Assembly: GCA_937872225.1 (NCBI GenBank)
Contig: CALMRZ010000092.1
Span: 1 to 50,411 of the forward strand
Reading direction: 5' to 3'
Source of the DNA: an uncultured Spirochaetota bacterium
GTDB taxonomy: Bacteria; Spirochaetota; UBA4802; UBA5550
Length of the DNA stretch: 50,411 nucleotides
Part shown: one piece after another, positions 7,032-34,153 of the stretch
How positions within the stretch are numbered: the first letter of the stretch is position 1
How the letters are laid out: each line of letters begins with the position of its first letter
Program-made: the position numbers and the translations under genes
The notes under the pieces: model-generated
Told to the model about the DNA's origin: nothing
What the model saw: the letters and a program-made list of their open reading frames with translations, nothing else
The model's database searches: none

Positions 7032-7064
7032 GCCGCCCCCCAGCCCCCCGAAGGGGGGCTTATC
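7032..7064. repeat. GC-rich hairpin repeat, left arm of pair 1
   Basis: AGCCCCCC (7042-7049) and GGGGGGCT (7053-7060) form a perfect 8-bp stem around GAA. It lies just past the stop of the hydrolase gene and could also slow or end its transcript; a run of T appears 12 bases later (7072-7077). It is the inverted partner of the copy at 7080-7110. Confidence 0.7.
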
Positions 7065-7079
7065 TTGCCTATTTTTTGT

Positions 7080-7110
7080 AAGTCCCCCTCCGGGGGATTT
7101 AGGGGGCTAC
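7080..7110. repeat. GC-rich hairpin repeat, right arm of pair 1
   Basis: The pattern is AAGTCCCCCTCCGGGGG then ATTTAGGGGGCTAC. Its core is almost identical to the reverse complement of 24286-24315 and to 7508-7534 on the same strand. Together with 7032-7064 it forms an inverted pair about 79 bases long. Confidence 0.8.
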
Positions 7111-7126
7111 ATTAATATTCAAATTT

Positions 7127-7493
7127 ATGATGAATTCAATGCAAACAAAAATCAGATCACCAAGATACGTTATAGATCTTGCAAGAAAAATGAGAGTTAA
7201 TCCAACTCCAGCTGAAAAATATTACGGAGCGAATTAAAAGAAAAGAAATTGGATGGATATAAATTCAGGAATCAGCACCCGATTCATAGATATATTTTAG
7301 ATTTTTATTGTGTCAAAAAGCTTCTTGCAATAGAAATAGATGGAGATATACATAAACAAAGGCTTGACTATGATGAATATAGAGACGCCTTTTTAAAAAG
7401 TATTGGCATAGAACATTGCGGTTTAAGAATGAGGATGTTATTGAAAATATAGGCGATGTACTGGATACTATTCGTATTAAATTACACTCTTAG
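7127..7493 (+). pseudogene. DUF559-family (Vsr-like) endonuclease gene, broken by two frameshifts
   Basis: The three frames read in turn give a complete small DUF559 protein. From 7127 the first frame reads MRVNPTPAEKYYGAN and stops. Restoring one A in the run after GCTG (about 7216-7222) continues as LRSELKEKKLDGYKFRNQHP, then YILDFYCVKKLLAIEIDG. Near 7420-7425 a second missing base is needed to reach RFKNEDVIENIGDVLDTIRI and the stop at 7491. DUF559 proteins share the PD-(D/E)XK nuclease-like core (here DFYCVKK and EIDG). The gene is clearly more AT-rich than its neighbours and is flanked by direct copies of the GC-rich repeat (7080-7110 and 7508-7534), which suggests it arrived with them. 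Sequencing error in A runs is possible for the first shift. Confidence 0.75.
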
Positions 7494-7507: not shown

Positions 7508-7534
7508 AAGCCCCCTCCGGGGGATTGGTGGGCT
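7508..7534. repeat. GC-rich hairpin repeat, copy downstream of the DUF559 remnant
   Basis: The copy reads AAGCCCCCTCCGGGGG then ATTGGTGGGCTC, in the same orientation as 7080-7110. It ends 15 bases before the larE start codon, so larE translation may begin right beside it. Confidence 0.75.
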
Positions 7535-10303: not shown

Positions 10304-10831
10304 ATGCTCTCAAAGGGATACATACATATTTATACCGGCAACGGCAAGGGAAAGACCAGCGCCGCCCTGGGGCTGGCCTTCCGCGCCTCGGGATCCGGAC
10401 TTCGGAGCATCATCATACAGTTCATGAAGGGTCTCCCCACGGGGGAGCTTGAGGCGGCGGCGAAGACCGGCGGGCTCATCACCATCGAGCGCTACGGCAG
10501 CACGCGCTTCTGCAGGCCCGATGACGGATCCTTCGACGAGCACCGGCAATTCGCCCTGCAGGGATACGGCCGCGCCAGGGAGGTCCTTGCCGGGGCCCTC
10601 TTCGACATCGTCATCCTTGACGAGATCATTACCGCCGCAAAGTTCGGACTGCTGTCCGATGACGATATCCTGGCGCTCTGCGGCGCCAGGCCTAACGCCA
10701 CGGAGCTGGTCCTGACCGGCCGGGGCGCCTCGGACGCCCTCATCGCCCGGGCCGACCTGGCCACCGAGATGAGGGAGATAAAGCACTATTACCGGGCCGG
10801 CGTGGCGCCGCGCAGGGGGATTGAAGACTGA
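10304..10831 (+). CDS. cobO: cob(I)alamin / corrinoid adenosyltransferase (CobO/BtuR type)
   Basis: The family transfers the adenosyl group of ATP to Co(I) corrinoids to give adenosylcobalamin. The P-loop GNGKGKTS is at residues 12-19, and VILDEIITAAKFGLL plus LVLTGRGA are typical of the CobO/BtuR family (the last is TGR in almost all members). Length 175 aa is normal. I use the ATG at 10304, five bases after larC. The stop codon shares its A with the ATG of the next gene. Placement directly after larC couples corrinoid adenosylation with nickel cofactor synthesis in one transcript; the reason is not obvious. Confidence 0.92.
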   Translation: MLSKGYIHIYTGNGKGKTSAALGLAFRASGSGLRSIIIQFMKGLPTGELEAAAKTGGLITIERYGSTRFCRPDDGSFDEHRQFALQGYGRAREVLAGALFDIVILDEIITAAKFGLLSDDDILALCGARPNATELVLTGRGASDALIARADLATEMREIKHYYRAGVAPRRGIED

Positions 10832-12336
10832 TGAAGGCCGCACGGTACGCCGCATATTCACTGCTCCCGCTCCTGATCGCCGTCATGGCGCTGGGCGCCC
10901 CCGCTGCGGAAAAACCCCTCATCGGCATCGCCACGGTGCGGAACAACAGCCCCCGCGCCCTGGCCCTCGCCGCGCTCCTTGACGAGAACCTCTCCCGCCT
11001 GGTGGAGCGGACCGGCATATTCCAGGCGGTAAACCCAGCCCTGCTGCGTGAGGAACTACAAAAATTCGGATGCACCGACGAGCAGTGCCTCCTCGGTTTC
11101 GCCCGCGACGCCGGTCTCTCCCTGGTCATTCGCGGGGACCTGGACGACGCCGGCGACTTCATCAGTCTCACCCTCCGGGCCTACGGTACCGGTTTCCCGT
11201 ACCAGCGGCAGGTGGTGTACCGCTACTCGGTGCGCATCCCCATGACCGGGCAGTTCGGCCAGGTCGAATACAGCAATATCACCGGAGAGCATACGGGGAT
11301 TTTCTTCTCGCGGCTCCTGGCGCGGTATCAGTCGGCCCACACGGTCACGGCCGTCCCCGACGGTGCCATGAAGGTGGCCCGGAGCCTTACCGGCTCCTTC
11401 ACCCTGTACCGCCCCGACCCCGCCGGCGATACAAACGCCCTCCGCGGCTACCGTCCCGTGGGCGCGGCGCGCCTTTCCGCCGGGACCATAGTGAAATCGG
11501 ACACGCCGGCGCGGCCGGGAGACTTCATCCTGACCGGGCATGAAGAAACGGCCCGGTTCGTCGACAAGCTGACCTATGAGGGCAAGCGCGAGGTCGTGTT
11601 CCGCGCGCCGTCGCCCCTTGACACCTTCTACGCCCTGCTCCTCACCGGTCCGGCCAGCGCGGTCATGCCCATTCTCGCGCCGACCCTGGGATACTACCGG
11701 TCAAACGACTGGACCGGCCTGACCCTCTGGACCTTAAGCGTCACGCCTTACCTGTACCTGGAGCTGAACGGTTTTTCGAACTACTACGAGAACTATCACA
11801 AAAAGAAAAAAACAGTGCCCCGGGACGTGCAGGCGCAGCATTATTTCGGCTGGTACATGCTTTTCGCCGGCGGCTCGTCGCTCTTCGTGGACTCCATGGC
11901 CCATGGCATGCTCGACAAGGCGGCCAACTACCAGGGGATACAGCCCTACCTGGGCAACGCCCTTACCGCCGCGTACCTGTCCCTGATTTCCGGAGGGGGA
12001 GGACTTTTTTACCGGGGGGACCGCCTCTTCGGCTACCTTTATTATCACGCGGACAATCTGCTCATGTATTTCATGATCCGCGAGTTCTGCCCTGAAAAAA
12101 AATTCGACCCCCTGACGCGGACCTTTTCAACGGGAAAAATAAACAAGACCCGGGCCTTTTCCCTCATGTCGGTCTTCTGTGCCGTCAAGATAGCGGAGAT
12201 CATCCACGCCGTGCTTATCCGTGACGCCATAGGAAACGGCGAGGTGTTCGATGAAGGCTATTCGATAGAGCCGGTCATATACGCCGGCGAACAAAACGAT
12301 ACCGGTCTCGGACTGCAGTATTCGTATAGGTGGTGA
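10831..12336 (+). CDS. exported TolB/CsgG-like N-terminus with C-terminal membrane segments
   Basis: Residues 1-26 are a signal peptide (AAYSLLPLLIAVMALGAPAA). Residues 30-130 (IGIATVRNNSP, LDENLSRLVERTGIFQAV, CTDEQCLLGFARDAG, LVIRGDL) resemble the alpha/beta domain found at the start of TolB- and CsgG-like proteins. From about residue 265 on, several hydrophobic stretches (YALLLTGPASAVMPILAP, AYLSLISGGGGLFYRG, LLMYFMIREF) suggest insertion in a membrane. The protein shares this plan with the next gene, including a GGGLFY(R/K)G motif, so the two are diverged tandem paralogues. Its ATG overlaps the cobO stop, so it is on the lar transcript. Function unknown. Confidence 0.65.
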   Translation: MKAARYAAYSLLPLLIAVMALGAPAAEKPLIGIATVRNNSPRALALAALLDENLSRLVERTGIFQAVNPALLREELQKFGCTDEQCLLGFARDAGLSLVIRGDLDDAGDFISLTLRAYGTGFPYQRQVVYRYSVRIPMTGQFGQVEYSNITGEHTGIFFSRLLARYQSAHTVTAVPDGAMKVARSLTGSFTLYRPDPAGDTNALRGYRPVGAARLSAGTIVKSDTPARPGDFILTGHEETARFVDKLTYEGKREVVFRAPSPLDTFYALLLTGPASAVMPILAPTLGYYRSNDWTGLTLWTLSVTPYLYLELNGFSNYYENYHKKKKTVPRDVQAQHYFGWYMLFAGGSSLFVDSMAHGMLDKAANYQGIQPYLGNALTAAYLSLISGGGGLFYRGDRLFGYLYYHADNLLMYFMIREFCPEKKFDPLTRTFSTGKINKTRAFSLMSVFCAVKIAEIIHAVLIRDAIGNGEVFDEGYSIEPVIYAGEQNDTGLGLQYSYRW

Positions 12337-12337
12337 A

Positions 12338-12368
12338 GACCCCCCTGTCCCCCTGAGGGGGCACATGG
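12338..12368. repeat. GC-rich hairpin repeat, left arm of pair 2
   Basis: It reads GACCCCCCTGTCCCCCTGAG followed by GGGGCACATGG. It is the near-perfect inverted copy of 12587-12614. It starts one base after the stop of the preceding gene and can form CCCCCTGAGGGGG-type hairpins. Confidence 0.8.
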
Positions 12369-12401
12369 GAAGATATAGATGGGTTTTCAGTAATTTTATA
12401 C

Positions 12402-12536
12402 ATTTGTCATCGCGAGCGCAGCGAAGCGATCTTGAAATTGTTAAAGATAAGGTATAGTATAATACCTATATTTCGATTTCATTGAATCTGGCATTAGCGT
12501 GATTGCTTCGTCGTTGCACTCCTCACAATGACAAAT
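12402..12536. mobile_element. MITE-like element with TGTCAT ends
   Basis: ATTTGTCATCGCGAG (12402-12416) and the reverse complement of 12522-12536 (ATTTGTCATTGTGAG) match at 13 of 15 positions and form terminal inverted repeats of a 135-base unit. The arms continue with GCAGCGAAGCGATCTT and, inverted, GCAACGACGAAGCAATC. This arm type is common as a dispersed non-coding repeat in many bacterial phyla. It contains no gene and is nested between the two arms of GC-repeat pair 2. Confidence 0.8.
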
Positions 12537-12561
12537 TATTATAAATGGTAAATCATTGTTT

Positions 12562-14079
12562 ATGAAAAACATTAAGCACATTATATCATGCCCCCTCGGG
12601 GGGACAGGGGTGTCATTACTGATTTTCTTTTTGATGATCCTCTTTCTCTTCGTCCCCGGAGGACGCCTTGCGGCGGAAAGGGCCCCCGTGGCCGGGACTA
12701 TTGCCATATTCCCGATCCAGGATTCCGGCATACAGCTCAATGCCCTTTCCGAGAAATCCGCCCGGGCCGTCATGGACGCCTGCGACCGGCTGGGGAGGTT
12801 TCTCCCCGTGGAAAGCGACCGGATAGAAAAAGCGATGGACGCCATTCCCGAAGGCTCCGGCGAGGAGGAACTGCTCAGGGCGGCGCAGCAGCTCAAGGCC
12901 GATCTTGTTGCCGTGGTAACCGTTGCAACGGACGGCTCCGCCTTCACCGGCACCCTCGCCATCCGTTCCGTTTCAGGGCAGTACAAACAGATGGAGCAGA
13001 ACATCATCGTCAGAAGCAGGGTCATGATGAACATCCCCCTCAAGCTCGCCCGGGAGATGGCCCTGCTTCACCGGGGCAGGCCGCTGGAGGCGCGTATCCT
13101 GGAAAAGAGGAACGGTCTGCATCTCTTAGACGCCGGCCAGTGGCAGGGCCTTGATCCGGGACGGTACCGCACCGCGGAGGGCGGGACCATAACCGTCCTG
13201 AACAGCGGCAGGTTCCACTCGCTGGCTTCAGTGCCGGAGCGGCTCGCGAAGCTGCCGCGCATCACCATAAAAAAATATCCTTCGTGCCGGGCGGTGGTCA
13301 AATACCTGGAGGACCAGATAGACTACAACACCAACAAGAAGTACAGCCTGGTGGCCACGGGGGTCAAGGGCCAGGACCCGGAAAAGCAGTTCACCCTCGG
13401 GATGTGCCTCGTCAATCCGGGCGCCAACGCCTGCCTTCCGGGATACGGTTCCTACCTGACCACGTCGTACATGGGCTTCAGGAACACGACCCCCAGCGTC
13501 GGCGGCATCGTGTTCTCGACGCTTCTCATCGTCACCCACTTCATCCTCCCGGAGGCCATGACGAAATTCAAGATCAATTTCGTACCCGGCATCATGGACA
13601 AGGACAAGACAAGGGCGATGAACAATCTCCAGATATTCTGCTGGGCCACGGTGCCCCTCACGGCCTCCGTGGCCTTCCTCGACCAGCTGGCGTACCAGTT
13701 CATGGTGAACAACGCCCTGCCGCCTTTTTTCATGACAAGAAACGAGTCAGCCATGGTCCTCTCGCTCTTCATTCCCGGCGGCGGCCTTTTTTACAAGGGA
13801 TACCGGCTCCCGGGCTGGAGCTTCTATCTTTCCGAGATGTTCCTGGCCGGGTTCTGCGTGTATACGAAGGATGATAAAAAAAAGGTCCTCTACGGCGGCA
13901 TAGCCCTTGGCGGGGTGAAACTTATCGAGCTCATCACAGCATATTTCTGCCCGCCGGCCTTCAGTTTTTTTAAATATGAACAGGAAGGCAGGATAACCCA
14001 GACATCATTATCCCTTAAAATCGTTCCCACCGATACTGGAGATCTGGTTTATAAAATCGGTTTATCCCGCAATTTTTAA
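12562..14079 (+). CDS. exported TolB/CsgG-like protein, paralogue of the preceding gene
   Basis: After a hydrophobic signal segment (LLIFFLMILFLFVPGG) comes an AGTIAIFPIQDSG block and an alpha/beta region like that of the 10831 gene, then a C-terminal half with hydrophobic stretches and the motif FIPGGGLFYKG, shared with its neighbour as ISGGGGLFYRG. A PGGG-FY-G motif of this kind also occurs in small membrane domains of the TM2/DUF5683 type. The start is uncertain. ATG 12562 lacks a ribosome binding site and its first residues (ISCPLGGTG) are coded by the GC-rich repeat. GTG 12610, just after GGGGGGACAGGGG, would remove them (489 aa) but also the positive N-terminal residues. Function unknown. 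Confidence 0.65.
   Translation: MKNIKHIISCPLGGTGVSLLIFFLMILFLFVPGGRLAAERAPVAGTIAIFPIQDSGIQLNALSEKSARAVMDACDRLGRFLPVESDRIEKAMDAIPEGSGEEELLRAAQQLKADLVAVVTVATDGSAFTGTLAIRSVSGQYKQMEQNIIVRSRVMMNIPLKLAREMALLHRGRPLEARILEKRNGLHLLDAGQWQGLDPGRYRTAEGGTITVLNSGRFHSLASVPERLAKLPRITIKKYPSCRAVVKYLEDQIDYNTNKKYSLVATGVKGQDPEKQFTLGMCLVNPGANACLPGYGSYLTTSYMGFRNTTPSVGGIVFSTLLIVTHFILPEAMTKFKINFVPGIMDKDKTRAMNNLQIFCWATVPLTASVAFLDQLAYQFMVNNALPPFFMTRNESAMVLSLFIPGGGLFYKGYRLPGWSFYLSEMFLAGFCVYTKDDKKKVLYGGIALGGVKLIELITAYFCPPAFSFFKYEQEGRITQTSLSLKIVPTDTGDLVYKIGLSRNF
12587..12614. repeat. GC-rich hairpin repeat, right arm of pair 2
   Basis: It reads CATGCCCCCTCGGGGGGACA then GGGGTGTC, the inverted copy of 12338-12368 apart from two substitutions and a two-base indel. 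It overlaps the 5' end of the following coding frame and its G run could act as a ribosome binding site for GTG 12610. Confidence 0.8.
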
Positions 14080-24285: not shown

Positions 24286-24315
24286 GGCCCCCAAATCCCC
24301 CGGAGGGGGACTTAT
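24286..24315. repeat. GC-rich hairpin repeat, left arm of pair 3
   Basis: The core AAATCCCCCGGAGGGGGACTT is matched in reverse complement by the copy at 7080-7110 over nearly its whole length. It and 24335-24364 form an inverted pair separated by about 19 bases, between leuS and the membrane-anchored gene. Confidence 0.8.
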
Positions 24316-24334
24316 GCGGTCAGTACTGGCCCTC

Positions 24335-24364
24335 AAAGCCCCCCTCCGGGGGGTGTGGGGGGTG
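24335..24364. repeat. GC-rich hairpin repeat, right arm of pair 3
   Basis: The copy reads AAAGCCCCCCTCCGGGGGGT then GTGGGGGGTG, same orientation as 7080-7110 and 7508-7534 and inverted to 24286-24315. Confidence 0.8.
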
Positions 24365-33960: not shown

Positions 33961-33990
33961 GCAGCCCCCGTCCCCCCGGGGGTGCACGTG
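33961..33990. repeat. GC-rich hairpin repeat, left arm of pair 4
   Basis: It reads GCAGCCCCCGTCCCCCCGGG then GGTGCACGTG. It is inverted relative to 34124-34153 and the pair encloses the MITE-like unit at 34023-34106. Confidence 0.7.
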
Positions 33991-34022
33991 GCGTGCAACC
34001 GTATACCGCCTTGCTTCATCAA

Positions 34023-34106
34023 TGTCATTTCAAAGGAACGGAACGAACGAAAAATTTTTATTGCTGTTATAAAAGATTTATCACCCCTCCGCGGCTTGAA
34101 ATGACA
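34023..34106. mobile_element. second MITE-like element with TGTCAT ends
   Basis: TGTCATTTCAA (34023-34033) and TTGAAATGACA (34096-34106) are perfect 11-base terminal inverted repeats of an 84-base AT-rich unit without coding capacity. It shares the outermost TGTCAT with the unit at 12402-12536 but the inner arms differ (AAGGAACGGAACGAACGA here). It sits between the arms of GC-repeat pair 4. Confidence 0.75.
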
Positions 34107-34123
34107 ATGGAGCCATGTTCCTA

Positions 34124-34153
34124 GTGCATGCCCCTTCAGGGGCAGGGGGGATC
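34124..34153. repeat. GC-rich hairpin repeat, right arm of pair 4
   Basis: It reads GTGCATGCCCCTTCAGGGGC then AGGGGGGATC. Its reverse complement resembles 12338-12368 closely (CCCCCCTG-CCCC-TGA-GGGG-CA). Confidence 0.7.

Follow-up and report, generated by a model that had tools for sequence, protein, structure and literature searches.

The composite repeat described here lies on a contig of 50,411 nucleotides (C92, hereafter the window), which belongs to a 4.69-Mb genome assembled in 95 contigs. The genome is that of an uncultured bacterium, assigned to Spirochaetota by its best Lon matches among public genomes. The features of the window are collected in Table 1. As the original prediction had it, two GC-rich arms (~12338-12363 and ~12589-12614) are inverted copies of one another (31 nt, 87% complementary; inverted repeat I4), and a separate element, a TGTCAT...ATGACA inverted pair, sits between them (12405-12533); the nesting at this locus is confirmed. 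The left arm reads GACCCCCCTGTCCCCCTGAGGGGGCA and the right arm, when reverse-complemented, GACACCCCTGTCCCCCCGAGGGGGCA, both following a three-run design of an outer C-run, a short linker, and a C-rich hairpin. The inner unit at 12405 carries a TGTC tag followed by a stem that starts with AT, as do CGTC-tagged REPs. The focal inner units are degenerate (5-bp outer stem vs a stem of 8-9 bp, a loop of 4-5 nt, and a CCA-like tail), and canonical CGTC-REP forms were found beside GIY-YIG genes.

Table 1. Repeat units, genes, and gene remnants in the window.
Position	Strand	Feature	Remarks
7036..7106	.	GC-unit inverted dimer left of the decayed DUF559 gene	ATTTA-linker subfamily
7125..7490	+	Decayed DUF559 gene	PF04480 match at 7207-7410 with one TGA; more stops in frame over the whole stretch
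7511..7533	+	GC unit right of the decayed DUF559 gene	
10831..12336	+	Upstream gene	Stop codon 1 base ahead of the left GC unit
12338..12363	-	Left outer GC unit	Outer C-run, TGT linker, CCCCCTGAGGGGG hairpin, CA
12364..12404	.	Left linker, GC unit to inner dimer	Unique among the composites compared
12405..12431	+	Left TGTC-tagged REP-like unit of the inner dimer	TGTC-ATCGC..GCGAT-C
12432..12500	.	Spacer within the inner dimer	
12501..12533	-	Right TGTC-tagged REP-like unit of the inner dimer	
12534..12588	.	Right linker	AT-rich; holds the putative start of the downstream gene
12556..14079	+	Downstream gene	
12589..12614	+	Right outer GC unit	Open frame 12556-14079 runs through it (residues SCPLGGTGVS)
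24288..24362	.	Short-spacer GC-unit inverted dimer, empty inside	ATTTA/TGT linkers
33965..33982	-	Second composite, left GC unit	
34023..34106	.	Second composite, inner inverted dimer	TGTCATTTC
34131..34150	+	Second composite, right GC unit	

When folded as single-stranded DNA, the inner 135 nt gave a z-score of -3.0. Except for the left arm of the second composite (z=-2.7), the short GC arms folded no better than their own shuffles, and the z-scores of the focal arms are uninformative. An Rfam scan of the window at the gathering threshold returned zero matches. At the focal locus, four congeners (G001, G002, G003, and G005) have a short intergenic region with neither element, while in a fifth, G004, the sole element is another kind of GC hairpin, sitting where the focal left arm would be. 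Besides, the right GC arm reads in frame close to the N-terminal end of the downstream gene (12556-12640), whose true start codon is uncertain; Rickettsia palindromic elements have likewise been reported in frame within genes.

Two repeat families and their nesting

Both families are dispersed across the genome. GC hairpins are strongly over-represented, the motif CCCCCTNNGGGGG having 145 genome matches (5 for the reversed control), and TGTCATTKCGANNGNAG, with up to two mismatches, has 88 (34 for the reversed control). The GC units, with the consensus TGCCCCCTCAGGGGGACAGGGGGG, occur in extragenic space as inverted doublets of palindromic units, the arrangement by which REPINs are defined. Their linkers separate at least two subfamilies: ATTTA units usually form short-spacer dimers, while ACA/ACG/TCA units, the kind to which the focal arms belong, often form dimers with AT-rich spacers of ~100 nt. 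Paired TGTCAT elements are inverted with their tags outward in the predominant arrangement, with 37 such pairs in the 1.57 Mb examined vs 1 in reversed sequence. Members of both families often lie right after stop codons and share hot spots there.

Two side observations concern the GC units. A family of 57-bp hairpins (GCGTTCTCAGGATGAGGTTGATGCC...) has 21 readable copies in four genomes of the genus, all of them, by eye, within GC-rich units of several subfamilies and mostly in the C-rich side of the GC hairpin, so that its insertion looks site-specific. In G004 (C2:232000-232550), a focal-type GC unit adjoins a hairpin of yet another family (CCCTCTCCCATTAA...), in what looks like one more nest.

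The nesting itself recurs too often for chance. Inverted GC units flank 7 of the 37 TGTCAT elements on both sides within 150 bp, compared with 1.2% of non-coding positions (p=3e-7, or p~4e-6 with a duplicated composite counted once), and the whole-contig sample alone gave 4 nested elements out of 12 (p~1e-5). Under a strict unit definition only 4/37 were nested since several arms are decayed. A lenient scorer, which finds 132 units in the real and 63 in the reversed sequence, was then run alike on the elements and on the null. These figures rest on seven nested copies, on a crude ORF filter as the non-coding mask, and on a sample partly picked for holding TGTCAT matches, in which some TGTCAT calls fall inside long ORFs. 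Further decayed nests were seen by eye at C76, C28:115611, C26:5336, C57:8150, and C24:5150.

The second composite (33961-34153) had been foreseen as the same order of elements with different sequence inside. The order stands; the latter part is half right, for the interior is another TGTCAT...ATGACA pair, of the TTTC subtype, and the interiors of both composites (12405-12533 and 34023-34106) fall in one broad class of TGTC-tagged inverted dimers. This composite aligns end-to-end at 78% with one on another contig (C24:42026), and the two have both outer-inner linkers in common. Past the GC arms, their flanks display no clear homology (left p=0.03, right p=0.36), although, given the left value, homology there is not wholly excluded. 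In G004, the composite is absent from the site orthologous to C24:42026. The shared linkers, the end of homology at the arms, and this empty site together indicate at least one move of the composite as a whole. The inverted ends typical of MITEs are present, while no target-site duplication was evident by eye when C24 was compared with the G004 site. A Lon-anchored relative (L119) is likewise without the second composite; owing to rearrangement of the surrounding region, however, it does not provide a clean empty site.

Two accounts of the nesting had been proposed, and each captures part of it. That the outer pair moves as a unit with its cargo is borne out by this one demonstrated case; among the linkers of eight composites compared, however, no other pair stands out, and since linkers elsewhere are unrelated, most nests look independent. 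That inner elements are drawn to the space between arms agrees with the excess of nests and the unrelated linkers, yet this falls short of strict targeting, given the ~30 of 37 TGTCAT elements outside nests, the post-stop hot spots shared by both families, and a reverse nest (C12:76224-76349) in which a single GC unit lies inside a TGTCAT inverted pair. Independent placement genome-wide, named beforehand as the outcome that would make the nesting chance, does describe most copies of both families, which are not nested, but leaves the excess unexplained.

Nuclease genes between the repeats

The window's decayed DUF559 gene, which has GC units on both sides (Table 1), is the only PF04480 match in this genome, and no intact DUF559 gene was found there. 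G004, in contrast, has on C2 an intact, open DUF559 gene of 118 aa between arms of the focal subtype (CCCCCCtgtCCCCC..DUF559..CCCCCtacGGGGGtcaGGGGG). Across the phylum, C-rich hairpins lay on both sides of 15/30 DUF559 loci, compared with 1/38 GIY-YIG or Y1 loci (p=4e-6). Similar C-rich inverted brackets surround plasmid DUF559 genes in cyanobacteria, Deinococcus, Azospirillum, and Sphingobium (p=0.0016 overall); that of a Pseudanabaena plasmid includes CCCCCTAAATCCCCCAATTCTGGGGGACTT. When nuclease flanks were scored for inverted repeats against mismatched pairs, p was 3e-5 for DUF559, 1e-5 for GIY-YIG, and 0.02 for Y1_Tnp.

For the inner family, the corresponding gene encodes a small GIY-YIG nuclease. 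Tag-outward CGTC/TGTC hairpins bracket such genes at 5/26 Spirochaetota loci vs 1/2511 random positions. Plasmid homologues were bracketed in 8 of 15 records, a set that includes related genera and had no random control of its own; the hosts are Rhizobiaceae, Azospirillum, Aeromonas, Neisseria, and Planktothrix. By eye, the small proteins are alike (YVYIL...YIGVT...YEHK...GFTKKY...LVYYE). In the present genome no bracketed GIY-YIG gene was found: one match (C28) is UvrC-sized, and a gene on C74 lacks TGTCAT flanks. In a Neisseria gonorrhoeae record (NZ_CP119140.1), a GIY-YIG open frame that has no annotated feature in the PLSDB table is bracketed by dRS3-like CGTCATTCCC repeats. Openly licensed papers on transposition, inverted repeats, or REPINs yielded no report that connects DUF559 or GIY-YIG nucleases with repeats of this kind; the nuclease-repeat link could nevertheless have been described in earlier literature.

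Origin of the nest and comparison with known repeats

We consider that the locus probably consists of two unrelated REPIN-like miniature elements, one nested in the other and both relatives of nuclease elements, with inner dimers gathering in the spacer of outer ones. The outer element, an inverted dimer of GC hairpin units, would be a non-autonomous relative of a DUF559-nuclease element with the same ends, and the inner one, an inverted dimer of TGTC/CGTC REPs, would stand in the same relation to a small GIY-YIG-nuclease element ending in such REPs. Both repeat types would derive from minimal elements composed of a single nuclease gene between hairpin units. Both elements would land in intergenic space, often directly past a stop codon, and the AT-rich spacer of the outer dimer would offer extra permissive non-coding space in which inner dimers accumulate repeatedly; the outer arms could then serve as the ends of a nested composite that is copied as a whole. 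From the bracketed genes we infer mobilisation by DUF559 and GIY-YIG nucleases, which might cut at or near their cognate hairpins so that repair of the break copies the repeat. Current mobility in this genome is at most putative, given that neither an intact DUF559 gene nor a bracketed GIY-YIG gene was found.

The main competitor, a reading that we regard as possible albeit clearly second to the one above, is that both families enter a few permissive intergenic sites independently and that nesting is a by-product of this coincidence. The many unnested TGTCAT elements speak for it, as does the locus C33:111301, where the palindromic insertions of six congeners differ although all sit directly behind one and the same stop codon, ahead of the next gene; among them is a TGTCAT dimer without GC arms in G005. 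Landing sites common to both families therefore play a part. However, the observed frequency of nests exceeds a null that was already limited to non-coding positions, and one composite was copied as a unit.

Two further readings concern the GC units alone, and we give little credence to either. If the GC dimers were REPINs mobilised by RAYT tyrosine transposases, their form as extragenic inverted palindromic doublets would be accounted for (PMC3116915), and Y1_Tnp genes do exist in all six genomes of the genus; yet in the 12 Y1_Tnp loci of the genus that were fetched (26 matches in total), neither GC arms nor TGTCAT units occurred within 1 kb, and the GTAG tag is absent from the GC units, judging by eye from the unit sequences listed, which makes this reading improbable. 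Still harder to sustain is the notion that the arms are duplicated intrinsic terminators. It would suit their frequent start just past stop codons, but the copies read have no T-run behind their hairpins, both the three-run architecture and the inverted pairing are conserved, DUF559 genes are bracketed by the same units, and the arms are missing from the congeners at the focal locus.

In a wider sense, we lean only slightly towards the view that DUF559 and GIY-YIG nucleases are dedicated mobilisers of two classes of palindromic repeats, apart from the HUH tyrosine transposases, with GIY-YIG moving CGTC REPs, and that nested composites can move as units. The bracketed genes provide a testable candidate enzyme for each repeat class, namely GIY-YIG (in Spirochaetota, Proteobacteria, and a cyanobacterium) for CGTC REPs and DUF559 for GC hairpins. 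Besides, the nests show that repeats of this sort enter each other and that the resulting composite can go on to copy itself, one way in which intergenic mosaics could form.

These features have counterparts in known repeat systems. REPINs are extragenic inverted doublets of short palindromic units that spread as non-autonomous units (Bertels and Rainey 2011, PMC3116915), and the focal units share this layout, whereas the gene linked to focal-type units is a DUF559 or GIY-YIG nuclease, with no RAYT at the loci checked. CGTC-tagged REPs frequently have TGTC as their tag, and their stems start with AT; they are present in several phyla, with Spirochaetes among the hosts, and seem to have no transposase of their own (Di Nocera et al. 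2013, PMC3733652). The inner units resemble them in the tag variant, the start of the stem, and the inverted dimer layout; they differ in that small GIY-YIG genes are bracketed by such REPs here and in that the focal copies are degenerate. IS elements are also known to insert into REPs (Tobes and Pareja 2006, PMC1525189). Here, palindromic repeats likewise serve as landing sites for other mobile DNA, and the habit of the 57-bp hairpin of landing in GC units agrees with that role, yet what is inserted is a palindromic repeat dimer or a 57-bp hairpin rather than an IS. Lastly, the neisserial dRS3/RS mosaics consist of short inverted palindromes around variable intergenic spacers (PMC3898611). 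Although their outer family is not the same as the GC units of this genome, dRS3 (ATTCCC-N8-GGGAAT, PMC3898611) resembles the CGTCATTCCC..GGGAATCCA units found around a GIY-YIG gene.
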